From assembly GCF_003611035.1 (NCBI RefSeq), contig NZ_CP030033.1:620001-684000 (forward strand): 64,000 nt of DNA, given 5' to 3'. This document shows positions 15,402 through 24,296 of the stretch, piece after piece. The notes under the pieces were generated by a model that was not told the DNA's origin, searched no databases, and saw nothing but the letters and a program-made list of their open reading frames with translations. The DNA comes from Cryobacterium soli (GTDB lineage Bacteria > Actinomycetota > Actinomycetes > Actinomycetales > Microbacteriaceae). Within the stretch, counting starts at the first letter, position 1, and every line of letters begins with the position of its first letter. A program made the translations under genes and the position numbers.

Positions 15402-16295
15402 CTAGAAGACGGTCAGTCCCCGGGCTTCGAACTGGCCGCGCACGCGGTTCAGCAGCTCGTTCTCCGGCGGGTGCACGCCGTGCAGGGGGTACGGGATGCT
15501 CAGGCGGTCCCACTTGTCCTCGCCCATCTGGTGGAAGGGCAGCACCTCGACGCGCTCCACGTTGGGCCAGGACTTGACGATGTCCACCACGGCCTCGACG
15601 TTGTCGACGGCGTCGGTGAGTCCTGGCACAAGGACGAAGCGCACCCAGACCGGGATGCCCCGCTCGGCGAGCCGGTCGCCGAAGGCGATCGTCGGCGCGA
15701 GTTCGCGGCCGGTGACGGTCTTGTAGGTGTCGGGCAGGCCCGACTTCACGTCGAGCAGAACCAGGTCGACGTTGTCGAGCAGCTCGTCCGAGGCACTCTT
15801 ACCGAGGTAGCCCGAGGTGTCCAGGGTGGTGTGCACGCCCAGGGCGTGCGCCTCCTTGAACATCCGCTTCACGAAGGCGGGCTGCATGAGCGGTTCGCCG
15901 CCGGAGATGGTGAGGCCGCCGTTGGTGGCCTTGAAGACACCCAGGTAGCGGGTCATCCGGGCGACCAGTTCGTCGATGGGCGTGACCAGCCCGTCGCGCA
16001 TCTTCCAGGTGTCAGGGTTGTGGCAGTACTGACAGCGCAGCAGGCAACCGGACAGGAACAGGGTCATGCGGGTGCCGGGGCCGTCGACGGCCGTCACCAA
16101 CTCCCAGGAGTGCACACTGGCGACGGTGCCTTCCCGGATCGCCTTCATTTCGAGGGTGTGCAGTTCGGCCTTGCGGTCGGCGTCGTTGAGGGCGCTGACA
16201 TCGTCGGAGACGGGCGCCGACAGGTCGACGTGCTCTCCGGAAAGTTCGACAACAGGACAGGCAACGCTAGGGAAGCCGAGGTTGATCGCGGTCAT
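15402..16295 (-). CDS. pflA: pyruvate formate-lyase-activating enzyme (radical SAM)
   Basis: 297 residues. The CxxxCxxC cluster site C84-C88-C91 (GCLLRCQYCHNPDTW) binds the 4Fe-4S that cleaves S-adenosylmethionine, and TISGGEPLMQ follows. The product abstracts a hydrogen from the PFL glycine, making the active glycyl radical. It has about 50 extra N-terminal residues compared with E. coli PflA (246). The start is supported by AGGACGAG upstream. It lies 46 bases downstream of pflB on the same strand, so the two are probably one operon; the enzyme is oxygen sensitive and implies anaerobic or microaerobic fermentation. Confidence 0.93.
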   Translation of the reverse strand: MTAINLGFPSVACPVVELSGEHVDLSAPVSDDVSALNDADRKAELHTLEMKAIREGTVASVHSWELVTAVDGPGTRMTLFLSGCLLRCQYCHNPDTWKMRDGLVTPIDELVARMTRYLGVFKATNGGLTISGGEPLMQPAFVKRMFKEAHALGVHTTLDTSGYLGKSASDELLDNVDLVLLDVKSGLPDTYKTVTGRELAPTIAFGDRLAERGIPVWVRFVLVPGLTDAVDNVEAVVDIVKSWPNVERVEVLPFHQMGEDKWDRLSIPYPLHGVHPPENELLNRVRGQFEARGLTVF

Positions 16296-16341
16296 GGTCT
16301 CGTCCTACCTAGCGTTGCCGGTCATGTGTTAAGGGTGTTCT

Positions 16342-18609
16342 TTAGTGCGAGTGGAACGTGCGGCTGATGACATCCATCTGCTGCTCGCGGGTGAGGCGGA
16401 CGAAGTTCACGGCGTAACCGGAAACACGGATCGTCAGCTGCGGGTAGTTCTCCGGGTGCAGCATGGCGTCTTCGAGCGTCTCTTTGTTGAGCACGTTGAC
16501 GTTCAGGTGGTAACCGGTGGCCGACGTGAACGCGTCGAGCAGGCCGACCAGGCTGGTGATCTGCTCGTCCTTGGTGTGGCCGAGGCCGCTCGGAACGACA
16601 GTGTTGGTCAGCGAGATGCCGTCCTGGGCTTCACTGTACGGAAGCTTGGCGACACTGAGTGCCGACGCGAGCATACCGTGCGTGTCGCGGCCGTTCATCG
16701 GGTTGGCACCCGGTGCGAACGGCTCACCCTTGCGGCGACCATCGGGCGTGTTGCCGGTGGCCTTGCCGTAGACCACGTTGGACGTGATCGTCAGGATCGA
16801 CTGGGTGTGGATGGCGTCGCGGTAGGTCGGGTGCTTGCGGATCATGGTCATGAAGCGTTCCATGACGTCCACCGCGATGACGTCGACGCGGTCGTCGTCG
16901 TTGCCGAAGGTGGGGAATTCGCCCTCGACGGTGTAGTCGACAACCAGGCCGGTCTCGTCGCGGACCGGGCGGACCGTGGCGTACTTGATGGCGGACAGCG
17001 AGTCGGCGACCACGCTCAGGCCGGCGATGCCGCAGGCCAGGGTGCGGATGATCTCCTTGTCGTGCAGTGCCATCTCGAGGCGCTCGTATGCGTACTTGTC
17101 GTGCATGTAGTGGATGCAGTTCAGTGCGGTGACGTAGGTCTCTGCGAGCCACTCGAGGGTCTCGAGGTAGGCCGGGAAGACGGTGTCGTAGTCGAGGATC
17201 TCGTCGGTGTTCGGCGCGGTGGCCGGGGCGATCTGCTTGCCGGACACCTCGTCCTTGCCGCCGTTGATCGAGTACAGCAGCGCCTTGACGGCGTTGACGC
17301 GGGCTCCGAAGAACTGCATCTGCTTGCCGACGCGCATCGGGGAGACGCAACATGCGATCGCGGCGTCGTCACCCATCTCGTTGCGGATGAGTTCGTCGGA
17401 CTCGTACTGGATGGCCGACGTGTCGATCGAGACCTGGGCGCAGAAGCGCTTGAAGCCCTCGGGCAGCTTGTCGCTCCAGAGCACGGTCAGGTTCGGCTCG
17501 GGTGCGGGGCCCACGTTGTACAGGGTCTGCAGGAAGCGGAACGCGGTCTTGGTGACCAGCGGGCGGCCGTCTTCACCGATGCCGGCGAGCGACTCGGTGA
17601 CCCAGGTGGGGTCGCCGGCGAAGATCTCGTCGTACTCCGGGGTACGGAGGAAGCGCACGATGCGCAGCTTGATCACGAGGTCGTCGATGAGTTCCTGGGC
17701 ACCGGACTCGGTGAGGACGCCGGCGGCGAGGTCGCGCTCGATGTACGCGTCGAGGAAGGCCGCGTTACGGCCGAACGACATAGCCGCACCGTTCTGCTCC
17801 TTGACGGCGCCGAGGTAGGCGAAGTACAGCCACTGAACGGCTTCCTTGGCGGTGGTGGCCGGCTTGGTGATGTCCGAGCCGTAGCTGGCGGCCATCTGGG
17901 CGAGCTCCTTGAGGGCCCGGATCTGCTCCGAGTTCTCCTCGCGGGCACGGATGATGTCCTCGGTCGAGGGCTCCATGTCCAGCTCGGCGCGGTCGTTCTT
18001 CTTACCGGCGACCAGGGCGTCGATGCCGTAGAGGGCCACACGACGGTAGTCGCCGATGATACGGCCGCGGCCGTAGGCATCCGGCAGGCCCGTGATCAGG
18101 TGGCTGCTGCGCGCACGACGCACGCCGGGAGGGTAGACGTCGAAGACCGCGGTGTTGTGGGTCTTGCGGTAGTCGGTGAAGATCTTTTCGAGCTCGGGCG
18201 ACACGGGGTAGCCGTAGGTCTCGAGCGAGGTGGCGACCATGCGCCAGCCGCCGAAGGGCATGATCGCGCGCTTGAGCGGCGCGTCGGTCTGGAGGCCGAC
18301 GATGACCTCGTTGTCCTTGTCGATGTAGCCGGGCTTGTGCGCGGTGATGGACGACGGCGTGGTGGCGTCGATGTCGTAGACGCCCTTCTCGCGCTCGACG
18401 GGGAACATCGCGGACAGCTTGGCCCAAATGCCTGTGGTGCGCTCGGTGGCGCCTTCGAGGAAGCTTGCGTCGCCGGTGTACGGCGTGTAGTTGCGCTGGA
18501 TGAAGTCGCGCAGGTTGATCGAGTCTTGCCACGGGCCGCTGACGAATTCAGCCGGGCCTGCTTCTGCGAGACCGCGCTGGTCGCTTCTGATGCCATCTGT
18601 AACGGTCAT
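16342..18609 (-). CDS. pflB: formate C-acetyltransferase (pyruvate formate-lyase)
   Basis: 755 residues, near E. coli PflB (760). It converts pyruvate and CoA to acetyl-CoA and formate. The catalytic cysteine pair is C420-C421 in [14 protein letters not shown], and the radical glycine is G731 in [12 protein letters not shown] near the C-terminus. The start is marked by AAGGAGAG. Followed by its activase. In a largely aerobic actinobacterial family, a complete pfl pair points to fermentative capacity. No formate channel or formate dehydrogenase is nearby. Confidence 0.95.
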
Positions 18610-18647
18610 ATGGATTGCTCTCCTTGTAGGATCGAGGCTTTCCCGCT

Positions 18648-18671
18648 GACTGGGTGTTTATCCCACCAGTC
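18648..18671. promoter_or_regulatory. inverted repeat upstream of pflB
   Basis: GACTGG (18648-18653) is mirrored by CCAGTC (18666-18671), with flanking CCCG/GGG pairing, about 40-60 bases upstream of the pflB start. Its position suits an operator controlling the pfl operon; the regulator is unknown and I see no FNR-type TTGAT-N4-ATCAA site. Confidence 0.35.
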
Positions 18672-18751
18672 GGGCCACGAGAGCAGGACCACGAGGTACC
18701 AGCTAATGCCACGGTGCCGGTGGTTCGCCCTCTGTTCTGAACACTACTCTT

Positions 18752-18784
18752 CGGTTCGGCGGCCGAACCGGGACCTTGGTCCCG
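18752..18784. terminator. paired hairpins between the sucrase-ferredoxin gene and pflB
   Basis: Two adjacent inverted repeats: CGGTTCGG/CCGAACCG (18752-18770, three-base loop) and CGGGACC/GGTCCCG (18769-18784). On the minus strand they begin about 35 bases after the stop at 18818 and would end the repeat-peptide operon, though no T-run follows. They could equally be operators for pflB. Confidence 0.4.
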
Positions 18785-18817
18785 TATTCACCTCCCATTG
18801 GGGGGTGCCTCCAGCCG

Positions 18818-19828
18818 CTATCGTGTGGACGCGCGCGCGGGCGCGATCGAGTGCAGCCGGAACTGTCGCACCGGGCGCGCCGTGGTGGCGGCACAGGTGC
18901 TGAGCAGCGGCTCGGAGAGGGTCTCGACGACCCGCACGGTGACCGGCTCGACGGCGTGAGCCGCCCGCGGTTCGTCGCCGGGCGCGGCGGTTCCGGTCGT
19001 GTGGTCGAAGGAGACGCTGTGCACCCCGGCCGACTCCGTCCACGACCGGTAGGCGAAGGCGTCCACGCGGTCGTCACCGAACTCCCGGGCCGCGAAGGCG
19101 GCAGCGGCCTGCACGACGTTCGGCAGCGAGCTGCGGCCACGGAAGCGGCTCGGTTCCACGAGTCCCCGGCGATACAGTTCGATCAGGGTGGGGGCCTCCT
19201 CCGCGCTCATCCGGCCGTAGTACAGCCCGTGCGGGAAGAGGATGAGGGTGGCCGCAAACCTGTCACCGCCCAGGTGGGAGCATTCCCAGGTGGCGTCGGG
19301 GTGGGCCAGGGCGAGCGCGGTGACAACCGGGCGGCCTCGCACGGCGCAACATTGGTCGTGGCGGGCGTGCGTGCACACGCAGATGAGCGGCTCGGTCGAC
19401 GGCTCCCCGCCGGCGCCGTCCAGCGGCACCGTGAGGAGGTCGGCTGGATCGGACACGGCGCCCCAGCGGATCTGCTCGTGCCCTGGCCGGGCATCCACCG
19501 CGGCCCAGCGCCAGCTGGCCTGGGCGCGGCGTTCGTGGGCGGTGCGGCCCGTGCGCCGGATCGCGAGCGGGCGGATGCCCGCGGCCTCGATGCGGGTGAC
19601 CAGGGCGCGGCCGAGGGCGGGGTCGAGCGGGGACTGCAGAAACGCGTGTGTGCCCCACGCCCCGTCGATCTCGACCAGGAACCAGCGTTCGCCGTACCCG
19701 GCCGTGCCGGGCAGCGGGTCGTCGCGCTCGAGGGACCGGTCGCTGCACGGCAGCCAGCCCGCGGCTGGCGACTGCTCCCCCGGCGCCGAGTCCCCCGGCC
19801 CGGCCCGGTCGTCCCCAGCCCGGCTCAC
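18818..19828 (-). CDS. sucrase/ferredoxin-like protein (thioredoxin-fold [2Fe-2S])
   Basis: 336 residues from a GTG at 19828 that overlaps the stop of the upstream oxygenase gene (GTGA, 19825-19828). It fits the sucrase/ferredoxin-like family (PF06999): SPLDPALGRALVTRIEAAG near 66-84, then the ferredoxin-like part with C150, C152, C160, C161 and C183 in CVCTHARHDQCCAVRGRPV and WECSHLGGDRFAATL. Such cysteines typically hold a [2Fe-2S] cluster in a thioredoxin fold. No signal peptide. In this operon it could supply electrons to, or remove metal or oxidant from, the JmjC-type oxygenase reaction; that role is inference. The family's physiological function is unsettled. Confidence 0.85.
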   Translation of the reverse strand: MSRAGDDRAGPGDSAPGEQSPAAGWLPCSDRSLERDDPLPGTAGYGERWFLVEIDGAWGTHAFLQSPLDPALGRALVTRIEAAGIRPLAIRRTGRTAHERRAQASWRWAAVDARPGHEQIRWGAVSDPADLLTVPLDGAGGEPSTEPLICVCTHARHDQCCAVRGRPVVTALALAHPDATWECSHLGGDRFAATLILFPHGLYYGRMSAEEAPTLIELYRRGLVEPSRFRGRSSLPNVVQAAAAFAAREFGDDRVDAFAYRSWTESAGVHSVSFDHTTGTAAPGDEPRAAHAVEPVTVRVVETLSEPLLSTCAATTARPVRQFRLHSIAPARASTR

Positions 19829-21087
19829 CGCACGACCAGGACGCCTTCGCGCACGAGGCGCCGGGCGACGACCAGGGACGAGGCCGAATCCAGCCCGGTC
19901 AGGCCGCCGGCCTGCGTGGTCTGGCCCGTGAGCACCTGCGCCAGGGCGTCGGCGGCCTCCGCGGGCAGAGTGACCCGTTTGCCCGACAGCACCAGCGACA
20001 CCGTGGTGGGACCCGAGCTCCGGCCGGGCCCGGAATCCGTCTCGAGACGGGCATCGAGCCCGCGGCGGAGGCTCACGGTGGTCGCCTCGTGCAGGGCGGC
20101 CGCCGCGGCGCTCGTCGCGAGCGGGGCGACCGGTTCCGGCCGGGCCGAGTCGCGCACCCTCGCGTGCAGGCGCCGCCCGACCGTGGCGTCGGGGCCGGGT
20201 TCGGCACGGGCGAACCGGGCCAGGTCGTCGACGGCCGCGCCGACGAGCGCGGCGACCGTCGCCGCATCCGTGAGGTCGACGCCCAACGGCAGCGCGGCGC
20301 GGAGTGACTCGTCGGCGGTCGCGGCCGCCAGCACCTCGCGGAGCACGTCGTGCCGGGTGAGGGCGGCGACCCCGATGGTCAGGTGGATGGACGTGCCGCC
20401 GAGCGCCGTCGCGGAATGGATCCAGCCGCGCGGGAGGTAGAGCACGTCCCCCGGCCGGAAAACTTCGTCGATGGCCGGCAGGTTGCGCGCCTGCGTCTCC
20501 ACCTCGCCGCGATGCCCGGACCACGGCTGGTCACGGAGCGGCCGGGAATGCACGGGCGGATGGATACGCCAGCGTTTCTCCCCCTGCACCTGGATCACGA
20601 AGACGTCGTGCACGTCGTAGTGCGGGTCGAATCCCCGTTCGGCGGCCGGGGTGATGTAGGCGTTCACCTGCACCGGATGGCCCAGGTCGGCCGCCAGGGC
20701 GCGGGCGAACTCCGCCAGCGGCGGCCAGGTGCGATGCAAGCCCTGCAGCACCAGGGTGGCCCCGGCACTGAGTTCGTCGAGGACCTTGTCGGCGCTGACC
20801 TGGTCGGCGATCTCGGCTCCCAGCCCACCGGGTGCCGTGTAGCGCGCGGGATCGAGCAGCACGCCGGCCTTGGCCATACGTGCGAACGGAGTGCGGAGGC
20901 CCCTGCGGGTGACCAGTTCATCCACCGCGTCGGCGCTGAACAGGTCGTCGAGCCCGTCGCCCAGCCCCGCGGCGCGGGTGAACAACGCCGCGCGATCCCA
21001 GTACTCGGCGGCAAAGGACTCCGGCGGCACCGGCAGCAGCCGTGCGAGCGCGGGCCGATCACTCGGCCCGCGCTGCCCGGAACCCAT
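19825..21087 (-). CDS. JmjC/cupin Fe(II)/2-oxoglutarate oxygenase (ROX-like)
   Basis: 420 residues from the ATG at 21087, which overlaps by one base the stop of the repeat-peptide gene (TGATG). The JmjC-like core has the iron triad H156-x-D158 (DPHYDVHDVFVIQVQGEKRW) and H224 (YLPRGWIHSA), with HLTIGV after it. The C-terminal part (about 360-420, VSLVLSGKRVTLPAEA and on) resembles the winged-helix end of ribosomal-oxygenase-type proteins such as YcfD/RoxA. These enzymes hydroxylate protein side chains (Arg, His, Asp/Asn) in the cytosol. Its direct coupling to a repetitive Asp/His/Asn-rich peptide suggests that peptide as substrate; this is inference. A housekeeping ribosomal hydroxylase is the alternative. 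Confidence 0.82.
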   Translation of the reverse strand: MGSGQRGPSDRPALARLLPVPPESFAAEYWDRAALFTRAAGLGDGLDDLFSADAVDELVTRRGLRTPFARMAKAGVLLDPARYTAPGGLGAEIADQVSADKVLDELSAGATLVLQGLHRTWPPLAEFARALAADLGHPVQVNAYITPAAERGFDPHYDVHDVFVIQVQGEKRWRIHPPVHSRPLRDQPWSGHRGEVETQARNLPAIDEVFRPGDVLYLPRGWIHSATALGGTSIHLTIGVAALTRHDVLREVLAAATADESLRAALPLGVDLTDAATVAALVGAAVDDLARFARAEPGPDATVGRRLHARVRDSARPEPVAPLATSAAAAALHEATTVSLRRGLDARLETDSGPGRSSGPTTVSLVLSGKRVTLPAEAADALAQVLTGQTTQAGGLTGLDSASSLVVARRLVREGVLVVR

Positions 21088-21341
21088 CAGGCGGATCCGT
21101 CGGCGCCGCCGTCGTGCCCCTCGGGGTTGGCGCCGCCGTCGGCCGTGCCCTCGCCGGAGGCGGAGCCGTCCGCGCCCCCGTCGTGTCCGGAGGGGTTGGC
21201 TCCCCCGTCTGCGGTGCCCTCGCCGGCATCGGCCGAACCGTCGGCCCCGCCGTCGTGACCCTCCGGGTTGGCTCCGCCGTCCGCGGTGCCCTCGTTCGGA
21301 TCCAGGCTCGATGTCGTGATGTCGTCGTCGTTGATGCCCAC
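21087..21341 (-). CDS. repetitive Gly/Asp/His peptide, RiPP-precursor-like
   Basis: 84 residues from a GTG at 21341; GGAGG at 21348-21352 gives ideal spacing. After a 17-residue opening (MGINDDDITTSSLDPNE) come three repeats, residues 18-41, 42-64 and 65-84, each built on GTADGGANPxGHDGGADGSA (x is E, S, E). Each repeat has one Asn-Pro, one His-Asp and three Asp. No Cys, Lys, Arg or aromatic residue is present, and the peptide is very acidic. Its stop overlaps the oxygenase start, so they are translationally coupled. A short N-terminal segment followed by tandem near-identical cores is the architecture of multi-core modified-peptide precursors. It could alternatively be a metal-binding or disordered acidic protein. 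Confidence 0.8.
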   Translation of the reverse strand: MGINDDDITTSSLDPNEGTADGGANPEGHDGGADGSADAGEGTADGGANPSGHDGGADGSASGEGTADGGANPEGHDGGADGSA

Positions 21342-21502
21342 TGCATACCTCCAAAGCCGTTGCCGGGCGCCGGCTGACGCCCACTCGCGATAGTACGTCG
21401 CCGACCGGGCCCGCGGCTAAGAAACTTCGAAGAATCCCGCGGGAGTGTTGAACCAGAACGAGATCGCCACCAGCGTGTTGCCCACCCGGAACGAGAAGAG
21501 CC
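21342..21502. promoter_or_regulatory. divergent promoter region between the repeat-peptide and flavinylated-redox operons
   Basis: 161 bases separate the repeat-peptide start (minus) from the ferric-reductase-like start (plus). On the minus strand TACTAT (21390-21395) is a fair -10 about 50 bases from the start codon, with no good -35. The palindrome TCCCGCGGGA sits near 21434. Shared space makes joint regulation possible but does not prove it. Confidence 0.45.
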
Positions 21503-22975
21503 ATGACAGTTCGCCAGCCCACTGCCGGCACCGACGCACCGACGACCGACGCACAGGATGTCGCCCGGGGAATCAGCCGGGGCGCGACCAGGGGTGCCAC
21601 GGCGCCGGTCGCCCGGGCCCGCCGGATCCGCACGCGACGCCGGCTCCGCGCCGCGGACATCCTGAGCACGGCGCTCGTCACCTCGATCGCCCTGGCCGTG
21701 GCGCTGTACCTGGCCTACGGCGGTCTGAACACCGTGACGGATGTCCCGTCGGCCGTGACCGCCCTGGGCATCGTGACCGGGCTCGTCGGCACCGACCTCA
21801 TCCTGGTCATGCTCGTGCTTGCTGCGCGCATCCCGCTGATCGACCGCACGGTCGGGCAGGACGTGGCCATGGCGCTGCACCGACGGCTGGGCAAGCCGGC
21901 CCTCTACCTGATTCTCGCCCACGGTGTGCTCCTCACGGTGGGTTACGCGCTCAGCAGCGGCGTCGACGTGATCGCCGAGACGATCTCCCTCTTCAACACC
22001 CCGGACATGGCCTTCGCCTATCTGGGCGTGGGGCTGCTCGTGGCCGTGGTGGTCTCGTCCCTCGTCGCGGTGCGCCGGCACTTCCCGTACGAGGTCTGGC
22101 ATGCCATCCACCTGCTCAGCTACGCCGCGGTGCTGGTCGCCCTCCCCCACCAGCTCAGCGCCGGCGGCGTGCTGGCCGACGGCACGGTGCAGCGCGTCTA
22201 CTGGCTGGCACTCTACGTTCTCGCCTTCGGGTCGATCGGCGCTTTCCGTTTCGTGCTTCCGGTGATCCGGTCGTACCGGCACGGGATCACGGTCTCCGGC
22301 GTCGAGACCATCGCCCCCGGTGTGGTGTCGATCCACCTGACCGGCCGTCACCTCGACCGGCTGCAGACGGCGGGCGGCCAGTACGCGATCTGGCGGTTCT
22401 GGACGGCCGGCACCTGGTGGCACGCGCACCCGATATCGTTCTCCGCGGTGCCCACGCGCACCAGCGCCCGAATCACGGTGCGGAACCTGGGCCGCGGCAG
22501 CCGCGAACTCGCCGAGGTGCCCGTGGGTACTCGGGTGTCATTCGAGGGCCCGTACGGCCTGTTCACCGATGCCGCCCGCACCTCGCCGCACCTGGCGGTC
22601 GTGGCCGCGGGGATCGGCATCACCCCCATCCGTTCGCTGCTCGAGCACTCCACTCTCAGCCGCGGCGAAGCGACGGTGCTGCTGCGCGGTACCGATGCCT
22701 CGCAGAGTTATCTGTGGAACGAGGTCGGCGCCCTGTCCCGCACCGCGGGGTCGGCCATCTACTCGATGATCGGACGCCGTCCTCGTGGGGTCGACACCTG
22801 GATGAGCGCCGAGGCGATCAGCGCCGGGGTCACCATCTCCAGCGTGTTCCCCCGGCTGACCGACTCCGACCTCTACGTCTGCGGCCCGCAGGCGTGGACC
22901 GATCTGGTGGTGCGGGACGCCAAGGCCGCCGGGCTAGCCGACCGTCAGATCCACGTGGAAAGGTTCGACTGGTGA
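21503..22975 (+). CDS. ferric-reductase-like transmembrane flavoprotein
   Basis: 490 residues, start marked by GAGAAGAG. An Arg-rich N-terminus precedes about six membrane helices (residues about 50-255) of the ferric reductase-like/heme type, with His residues in helices (ALHRRLGK, LILAHGVLL, WHAIHLLSY, LVALPHQL) that could bind two hemes. A cytosolic FAD/NAD domain follows: HAHPISFSAVP, VSFEGPYGLF, AAGIGITPIRSLL for nucleotide binding and DLYVCGPQAW near the end. It should pass electrons from NAD(P)H through FAD and heme across the membrane. Its stop overlaps the start of the FMN-binding protein (GTGA), suggesting that protein is its acceptor. Confidence 0.9.
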   Translation: MTVRQPTAGTDAPTTDAQDVARGISRGATRGATAPVARARRIRTRRRLRAADILSTALVTSIALAVALYLAYGGLNTVTDVPSAVTALGIVTGLVGTDLILVMLVLAARIPLIDRTVGQDVAMALHRRLGKPALYLILAHGVLLTVGYALSSGVDVIAETISLFNTPDMAFAYLGVGLLVAVVVSSLVAVRRHFPYEVWHAIHLLSYAAVLVALPHQLSAGGVLADGTVQRVYWLALYVLAFGSIGAFRFVLPVIRSYRHGITVSGVETIAPGVVSIHLTGRHLDRLQTAGGQYAIWRFWTAGTWWHAHPISFSAVPTRTSARITVRNLGRGSRELAEVPVGTRVSFEGPYGLFTDAARTSPHLAVVAAGIGITPIRSLLEHSTLSRGEATVLLRGTDASQSYLWNEVGALSRTAGSAIYSMIGRRPRGVDTWMSAEAISAGVTISSVFPRLTDSDLYVCGPQAWTDLVVRDAKAAGLADRQIHVERFDW

Positions 22976-23505
22976 GAAAACGCGCTGTCGCAGCAAGCAT
23001 CCTCTCCTCTGCCGCCGTCCTGGTGGTGGGCTGGCAACTCGGCGCCCCCAGCGCCGTGATGACGTCGGTTCCGTCCGCCTCTTCCGGCGTCGGCACCAGC
23101 ACCGGTCCGGGGTCACCGGCCACGGGCACATCGTCGACGGGCACATCGTCCGCGGGAACGCCGTCCGCGGGCGGCGCGTCGGCACCGGCCGCCACGGCTT
23201 CCGCCACGCCCGCGGCACCGGCCGCAGCCTCCGGCACGTTCGTGGGCACCAGCACCTCCACCCGGTTCGGATCGGTGCAGGTGCAGATCACCGTGACGGC
23301 GGGCAGCATCACCGATGTGACCGCCCTCAAACTCACGGATGCCGACGGACGGTCCGTGCAGATCAGCAACCGGGCTGCCCCGGTGCTGCGCCAGGAGGTG
23401 CTCTCGGCGCAGTCCGCCCAGGTCTCCACGGTCTCCGGCGCCACCTACACGAGCGAGGCGTATCTCACGTCGTTGCAGTCAGCTCTCGACCAGGCCGGAC
23501 TCTGA
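22972..23505 (+). CDS. exported FMN-binding domain protein (covalent flavin carrier)
   Basis: 177 residues from a GTG at 22972, overlapping the preceding stop by four bases. An N-terminal hydrophobic segment (residues 5-25, signal or anchor) leads to a Ser/Thr/Ala/Pro-rich tether (35-88) and a C-terminal FMN-binding domain with VSGATYTSEAY at 154-164. The SGAT motif is where ApbE attaches FMN by a phosphoester bond, most likely at Thr158. The acidic residue often found three positions before the motif is Ser here. The domain should hang outside the membrane and take electrons from the ferric-reductase-like partner. The next gene encodes ApbE. Confidence 0.88.
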   Translation: MRKRAVAASILSSAAVLVVGWQLGAPSAVMTSVPSASSGVGTSTGPGSPATGTSSTGTSSAGTPSAGGASAPAATASATPAAPAAASGTFVGTSTSTRFGSVQVQITVTAGSITDVTALKLTDADGRSVQISNRAAPVLRQEVLSAQSAQVSTVSGATYTSEAYLTSLQSALDQAGL

Positions 23506-23507
23506 TC

Positions 23508-24296
23508 ATGCCCACGGTGGTCTTCCCGACCATGGGAACGATGGCGAGCCTGCGCTTTCGCGATGCGCCGCCCGGCACGAACGGTGACGTCACCGACGTA
23601 CTGCAGGGCCTGCGCGATCATTTCGAGGACCTCGAACAGCGGTTCAGCCTGTACCGGGCCGATTCGGAGATCAGCCGGATCAACGACGGGTCCGAACGGC
23701 TGACCCGGGCCAGCCCATCGATGCTCGCCGCCTACGAGCTCGCCCTGCGCTGGCGGGACGACACCGGCGGAGCCTTCACCCCGCACCGTCCGGACGGTTT
23801 CCTCGACCTTTCCGGCGTGGTCAAGGCCCTGGCTATCGAGGATGCCGGCCGACTGCTGCGTGCGGCCGGCGTGCAAAATTGGCTGGTCACCGTCGGCGGG
23901 GACACTCTGTCCGACGGAACGGAGGCCCCGGCGCCCCAGGCGGAGGGGACGCAGACACCGTGGACCGCGGGCATCGTCGACCCGCTCGACCGCAGCGCCC
24001 TGCTCTGCGTCGTCCCGTTCACCGACAACTGGCGAGCGATAGCGACGTCGGGCACCTCCGAACGTGGCGAGCATGTCTGGCGCCGCCCGGAGTCCGGCGC
24101 CCTTGTGCAGGTCAGCGTCCTGGCTGCGGACATCGTCACGGCCGACGTCCTGGCCACGGCGATCCTGGCCGGCGGACCCGACACCCTCGACCGGGCGACC
24201 GAGCGCTGGAACATCGACGTGCTGACGGTCGACGCGTCCGGCGGCCTGGCGATGACGCCGCGGCTGCGGGAGCGCTACCTCAGCCCCGTGACCTGA
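23508..24296 (+). CDS. apbE: FAD:protein FMN transferase
   Basis: 262 residues; the ATG at 23508 lies 2 bases after the preceding stop. ApbE moves the FMN part of FAD onto a Thr/Ser of an SGAT motif. Recognisable are TMGTMASLRF at the start, LEQRFSLYRADSEISRIN (38-55), DGFLDLSGVVKALAIE for flavin binding, VTVGGDTLSDG, a IATSGTSERGEH segment, and a metal site in ADIVTADVLATAIL. No lipoprotein signal is visible, so it may act in the cytosol or reach its target by another route. Third gene of the flavinylation operon. Confidence 0.9.
   Translation: MPTVVFPTMGTMASLRFRDAPPGTNGDVTDVLQGLRDHFEDLEQRFSLYRADSEISRINDGSERLTRASPSMLAAYELALRWRDDTGGAFTPHRPDGFLDLSGVVKALAIEDAGRLLRAAGVQNWLVTVGGDTLSDGTEAPAPQAEGTQTPWTAGIVDPLDRSALLCVVPFTDNWRAIATSGTSERGEHVWRRPESGALVQVSVLAADIVTADVLATAILAGGPDTLDRATERWNIDVLTVDASGGLAMTPRLRERYLSPVT

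Follow-up and report, generated by a model that had tools for sequence, protein, structure and literature searches.

On the minus strand of a 64,000-nucleotide stretch of Cryobacterium soli DNA (contig NZ_CP030033.1, positions 620,001 to 684,000; hereafter the window), three genes lie head to tail from 21341 to 18818 and encode, in this order, an Asp-rich repeat peptide, a JmjC oxygenase and a Suc_Fer-like ferredoxin. We propose, with a probability of roughly 0.7, that they make up a modification system of two genes plus an accessory third, in which the JmjC enzyme would hydroxylate Asp residues of the peptide. Peptide and oxygenase form a conserved unit, which makes the peptide very probably the multi-site substrate of the enzyme. 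A precursor gene beside a candidate modifying enzyme, the two conserved together, is the arrangement of a ribosomally synthesized and post-translationally modified peptide (RiPP). The system indeed appears RiPP-like, set apart by a JmjC protein as its only constant enzyme, by many predicted sites per chain and by interchangeable cores. A bacterial NO66-like JmjC oxygenase thereby gains a concrete, testable peptide substrate candidate. No description of this peptide, motif or operon was found in the open-access literature searched. Iyer et al. 2010 reportedly treat bacterial jumonji-type peptide modification; PMC2922099 describes a different system.

The peptide gene and its JmjC partner

The window peptide consists of a short leader, VGINDDDITTSSLDPN, followed by three near-identical EGTADGGANP[E/S]GHDGGADGSA units. 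In pairwise comparison, 8-9 of the 20 codons of a unit carry a synonymous difference but only 0-1 a non-synonymous one, which indicates that selection maintains the protein sequence and not the DNA. These synonymous differences, together with the many homologues, rule out a simple DNA repeat or an artefact. Homologues number 171 at E <= 1, and many of the 120 listed fit two units into about 60 residues; at E <= 1 the window peptide matched nothing in Pfam or NCBIfam. The adjacent oxygenase matches Pfam JmjC_2 (PF08007) with 98.9 bits against a cut-off of 22, and its full-length fold, C-terminal domain included, corresponds to the JmjC_2 or NO66-MINA oxygenases. NO66 and MINA are its nearest solved folds, the ribosomal oxygenase YcfD also appears in the list, and the HxD...H iron ligands align with those of NO66.

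A first-pass annotation of this DNA had described three tightly overlapping open reading frames (ORFs), an 84-residue peptide with three repeat units, the ligands H156, D158 and H224, and a sucrase-ferredoxin-like third product with a thioredoxin fold. The ORFs lie where it placed them, on a strand about which it was silent; the peptide and the TGATG and GTGA overlaps are present in the sequence, the three ligands are invariant across 46 aligned relatives, and the third product matches the Suc_Fer-like family PF06999 with 62.4 bits against a cut-off of 34.9. Its statement that coupled translation implies matched amounts does not follow from the overlap. With start codons guessed by script, the JmjC start and the peptide stop share 1 or 4 bases in 42 of 79 loci, and 37 lack such an overlap.

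A scan of named genomes, with search patterns that contained His and Asn, retained the best 80 of 269 confirmed candidates. They span Cryobacterium and other Microbacteriaceae, Mycobacterium, Mycolicibacterium, Rhodococcus, Gordonia, Williamsia, Dietzia, Cellulomonas, Actinoplanes and others. The operon extends well beyond Microbacteriaceae and occurs in and outside the window's class, within the same phylum. The JmjC gene directly follows the peptide gene in 79 of the 80 loci; in the last (L058) the contig ends inside the peptide. Repeat number, to which the first-pass annotation had drawn attention, does vary: three units occur in 73 loci, four in 4 and two in 3, as counted among best matches to a three-unit query.

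The pairing was also approached from the enzyme side. JmjC matches were obtained in 97 of 296 genomes of the class, and the 50 best (E <= 2.2e-69) were taken as the close JmjC set. An Asp-rich ORF lies at most 150 bases upstream of JmjC in all 50 loci: 46 are ADGG-type, two are type B (L129, L131; defined below) and two are non-repeat peptides (L122, L126), labelled type C after the sequences had been seen. The type-C peptides end in DDPELxGADLxEDQxxGxGPTxEPGA and have no ADGG repeats. Relatives consistently lacking a repeat peptide, which would have spoken against the first-pass proposal, were not found among these 50. For comparison, 816 other long-ORF starts in loci L002-L081 yielded 7 ADGG-type and 5 generally Asp-rich upstream ORFs, and all 7 ADGG-type starts proved to be operon positions in loci with an operon outside the masked range; by the same criteria, 48 of the 50 close-set loci count as peptide-bearing. 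A 138-residue protein on a 550-base contig (P0115) appears to fuse a JmjC N-terminus to two ADGG units; given a contig of only 550 bases, it may be an assembly artefact and carries no weight here.

Distribution of the operon across the window's genus is patchy (12 of 57 genomes), and the loci of the other 11 genomes all have the peptide. A close JmjC in 50 of 296 class genomes, in addition to the named Rhodococcus, Mycolicibacterium, Gordonia, Cellulomonas and Actinoplanes strains, implies that the product could be widespread yet unseen. A search of the plasmid collection gave no JmjC match at E <= 1e-30.

Leaders, cores and the comparison with RiPPs

More distant enzymes are accompanied by other cores. 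Type B, defined by an Asp content of 20% or more over the last 60 residues and mostly built of DxDGTDGD-like repeats, was found in 7 of 20 lower-scoring class loci and in 18 of 20 matched genomes outside the class; the latter also gave one type-E peptide (two exact PTEDDENLDAPGEHSQDTGDE copies) and one locus with none. In a tree of 90 JmjC proteins, core type requires 6 changes (minimum 5; shuffled mean 38.6). Core type thus follows the enzyme tree, as expected for precursor and enzyme. An LxDDDIxT-like leader motif appears to recur in relatives with different cores: the pattern [LIV]x[DE]x[DENQ][IMV]x[TRA], written with the sequences already seen, is present in all 27 type-B peptides and absent from the one type-E peptide, where shuffling predicts 0.31 of 28. 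A position-specific score derived from ADGG-type leaders is significant (p <= 0.05) in 16 of the 27 type-B peptides and in the type-E peptide.

Leader and core organisation would also suit a classical secreted RiPP, in which hydroxylation is one step among several and the protease and exporter are encoded elsewhere in the genome. A distant JmjC branch with short peptides fits this picture. In one family of the class (f23), the JmjC genes of L136, L139, L143, L145, L147, L148, L149 and L151 follow a 35-38 residue peptide resembling MDPIEVEVEDLAEVTSRDITAGGDSDGTDSSSDFI; in L139, the one locus tested, the ORF upstream of the short peptide encodes a Peptidase_S9 protein, and similar ORFs were seen by eye in other f23 loci. 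This branch looks like a second peptide system of the same kind. Against a secreted RiPP stands the clustering of neighbouring ORFs of at least 70 residues at 81 loci, with flanks of up to 6 kb (shorter in many): beyond the three operon genes no cluster occurs in more than 13 of the 81 loci, and no protease or exporter gene recurs above that number in these locus flanks, as distinct from whole genomes. The product may accordingly act unprocessed or be left to general proteases, and we regard a classical secreted RiPP as rather unlikely, though it is the best of the alternatives.

Known systems, compared here by description, share some of these features. In the biphenomycin-type RiPPs, BipG, BpmG and PbsQ are JmjC or cupin enzymes that hydroxylate a side chain of a ribosomal precursor, as is proposed here, but there the target is ornithine in a short motif and the cluster comprises multiple enzymes (MNIO, radical SAM, arginase, protease). 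In the present operon no enzyme other than JmjC is constant, and the majority of cores consist of tandem Asp repeats. Asp, the residue proposed here, is hydroxylated in ribosomal peptides by CanE (canucin), SmaO/SmaX (graspetide group 18) and PesHI (nitrilobacillins), at one C-terminal Asp (CanE), at Asp21 (PesHI) or near the N terminus (SmaO); the operon combines many repeated Asp residues with an NO66-kind enzyme.

The candidate site and alternative targets

JmjC enzymes hydroxylate Asp, Asn, His, Arg or Lys. Among these residues only Asp occurs in every core, and each of the 50 enzyme-driven peptides has 8 or more in its final 60 residues. It is this known site type that singles out Asp over other constant residues, and Asp is probably the site of the predicted hydroxylation.

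The target of the enzyme might instead be the His (or Asn) of every GHDGG unit, in line with the ribosomal His that NO66 and MINA hydroxylate, and Asp would then only bind. The nearest folds are those of NO66 and MINA; moreover, of the 240 units of the named loci 235 contain His and 239 contain Asn, a constancy that is partly search-made, as the retrieval patterns contained these residues, and 42 of the 50 enzyme-driven peptides contain at least one His. Yet 8 of these 50 whole predicted peptides have no His (L103, L105, L111, L114, L124, L126, L129, L131) and 6 have neither His nor Asn; Arg and Lys are missing as well from L114 and L124, the latter being little more than (GGAD)n. Restricted to the last 60 residues, His is missing from 12 and Asn from 32 of the 50, and type-B cores contain His in only 4 and Asn in only 5 of 27. 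His and Asn are thus dispensable across relatives, which leaves Asp as the likely site and makes His or Asn improbable as sole target. The first-pass annotation had read the peptide as a multi-core precursor hydroxylated by the oxygenase, with Asp, Asn and His as offered sites. The conserved peptide-enzyme unit, the varying repeat number and the presence of Asp in every core bear this out in part; hydroxylation is predicted, and His and Asn are probably wrong as sites.

Still less probable is that JmjC acts on something else, such as a ribosomal protein, with the Asp-rich peptide as pseudo-substrate or regulator. The NO66/MINA fold and YcfD in the fold list speak for it, and the unit NPxGHDGG seems loosely similar to the NPVxHPxGGG loop of ribosomal protein L2. 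However, a profile of the close peptide type matched 21 of the 296 genomes, all within the 50-genome JmjC set, and none of the 246 genomes without a close JmjC (E <= 1e-6). Core type tracks enzyme clade, many repeats per chain fit a multi-site substrate, and the operon is patchy where ribosomal proteins are universal. Very improbable is a reading in which the peptide, acidic and disordered, stays unmodified and could bind cations by composition alone, with JmjC and ferredoxin performing unrelated chemistry from the same transcript: modification is only predicted, but peptide and JmjC recur together across many genera and the close peptide was not seen without JmjC in the 296-genome sample.

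Several observations weigh against Asp hydroxylation of the peptide by JmjC or against parts of this proposal. The JmjC frames of L110 and L130 (2 of 50) carry a stop or frame change in the assembly. Of the 50 genomes, 29 have more divergent peptides that escaped the peptide profile, so the co-occurrence result holds for the close peptide type only. Among the 20 lower-scoring class JmjC loci, 5 have no Asp-rich peptide and 8 have a short non-repeat one (type D, 35-38 residues), and the clustering of cores on the enzyme tree partly reflects relatedness. A single common leader is questioned by the position-specific score, which reaches p <= 0.05 against own shuffles in 16 of 27 type-B peptides and is no better than shuffles in the two type-C peptides, and by a looser pattern that finds the leader in 32 of 46 type-A peptides. 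Gly and Ala, like Asp, occur in every core, and NO66 and MINA are described as histidyl hydroxylases. An adjacent Suc_Fer gene is missing in 16 of 80 named loci (in L058 at a contig end), and none of the 13 genomes tested of these 16 has a PF06999 match, so Suc_Fer is not strictly required. The null results on neighbouring genes, above, and on metal-type boxes, below, count on the same side. Finally, hydroxylation is a prediction, and the association is also compatible with a peptide that regulates the enzyme.

Ferredoxin, proposed mechanism and genomic setting

Suc_Fer adjoins JmjC in 39 of the 50 close relatives and is present somewhere in the genome in 47, compared with 112 of 246 other genomes (p 1.9e-11, uncorrected for relatedness). 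Operon copies differ from other Suc_Fer-like proteins, thioredoxin-like [2Fe-2S] ferredoxins that include Apd1 and Aim32, in carrying SHxGGDRF in place of SHxGGHRF. The Asp is found in all 64 named loci that have the motif, in 34 of 35 JmjC-relative loci (Cys in the remaining one), in the three close-set genomes with Suc_Fer away from the operon (L218-L220) and, counting the first match, in 21 of 24 type-B/E loci; of the other three, L135 and L137 have a His-type copy beside an Asp-type one and L166 has Cys. Outside the 50-genome set, in a small sample of 17 genomes from mostly high-scoring rows, the motif is present in 16, each time as SHxGGHRF or THxGGHRF. Asp189 of the window protein thus occupies the position of a His in sampled copies from genomes without a close JmjC. 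This second His serves as a cluster ligand in Apd1, and His-x3-His ligands define the Apd1-type bis-histidinyl ferredoxins; the window protein departs from that pattern at Asp189. The operon marks a ferredoxin subfamily whose unusual ligand-position residue accompanies the system.

We propose that JmjC would recognise the peptide via its partly conserved N-terminal leader and would use Fe(II), O2 and 2-oxoglutarate to hydroxylate successive core Asp residues, with the beta carbon as the likeliest position; a single chain may thus end up carrying many hydroxy-Asp residues. As redox partner, the [2Fe-2S] protein Suc_Fer, which is the Asp form of a family widespread in its His form, could either keep the enzyme iron ferrous or reduce a metal held by the product; we put this role forward only tentatively. 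As a working guess, the product would be a polypeptide, acidic and metal-binding, that is retained in the cell or released by general routes; so many hydroxy-Asp residues in one chain might bind Fe(III) or Ca, and metal binding is doubtful. Only tentatively do we advance the fullest version: an undescribed, widespread actinobacterial class in which a stand-alone JmjC of the NO66 kind would follow an LxDDDIxT-like leader and poly-hydroxylate interchangeable Asp-repeat cores, with a co-specialised ferredoxin variant (Asp for His at the ligand position), to give a metal-binding poly-hydroxyaspartate chain. NO66/RIOX1 and MINA53/RIOX2, with YcfD/ROXA, share full-length fold and HxD...H ligands with the window enzyme but act on ribosomal proteins, whereas the latter is encoded with an Asp-rich repeat peptide, and no ribosomal gene was seen among the recurring neighbours of the 81 loci. 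If the proposal is true, NO66-type ribosomal oxygenases share ancestry with peptide-tailoring enzymes, and the operon would provide a minimal ribosomal pathway to poly-hydroxyaspartate in which the cores are naturally interchangeable.

In 47 upstream regions, no Fur-, IdeR-, Zur- or FurA-like consensus box was found above shuffles. Metal binding thus remains a guess, and an iron-regulated siderophore-like peptide was rejected. De novo, one upstream motif resembles a ribosome-binding site; a second, GATTCGTCGATC-like, lies about 35-130 bases before the peptide start in 46 regions, above shuffles, and is a possible regulator site. No Rfam RNA or riboswitch was found at E <= 0.5 in 18300-22000. 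The features of the operon are listed below.

Features of the operon in the window
Feature	Position	Strand	Remarks
Shine-Dalgarno-like GGAGG of the peptide gene	21348..21352	-	six bases 5' of GTG; sequence
Precursor peptide gene, 84 residues, GTG start, stop included	21087..21341	-	
Leader, residues 1-16, VGINDDDITTSSLDPN	21294..21341	-	
Repeat unit 1, EGTADGGANPEGHDGGADGSA	21231..21293	-	
Repeat unit 2, EGTADGGANPSGHDGGADGSA	21159..21221	-	
Repeat unit 3, EGTADGGANPEGHDGGADGSA	21090..21152	-	
NO66/MINA-like JmjC Fe(II)/2-oxoglutarate oxygenase, 420 residues	19825..21087	-	overlap with peptide stop, TGATG
Iron-binding motif HYD, JmjC residues H156-D158	20614..20622	-	H156 and D158 invariant, 46 sequences
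Third iron ligand, JmjC H224	20416..20418	-	invariant, 46 sequences
Suc_Fer-like protein, 336 residues	18818..19828	-	thioredoxin-like [2Fe-2S] ferredoxin fold, residues ~144-232
TWECSHLGGDRF, Suc_Fer residues 180-191, includes Asp189	19256..19291	-	

Small neighbour clusters comprise 5-13 loci each; one, of 6 loci, resembles a transporter permease by eye. Divergent to the operon, the window encodes at 21503-24296 (plus strand) a ferric-reductase-like flavoprotein and ApbE, with an apparent flavin mononucleotide-binding protein between them (by eye). These genes resemble a flavin-based electron-transfer cluster and are not among the operon's recurring neighbours. Downstream of the operon, at 15402-18609 (minus strand), lie a pyruvate formate-lyase and a probable activating enzyme, the latter assigned by eye; the proximity of this oxygen-sensitive chemistry to an oxygen-dependent JmjC enzyme is probably due to chance.
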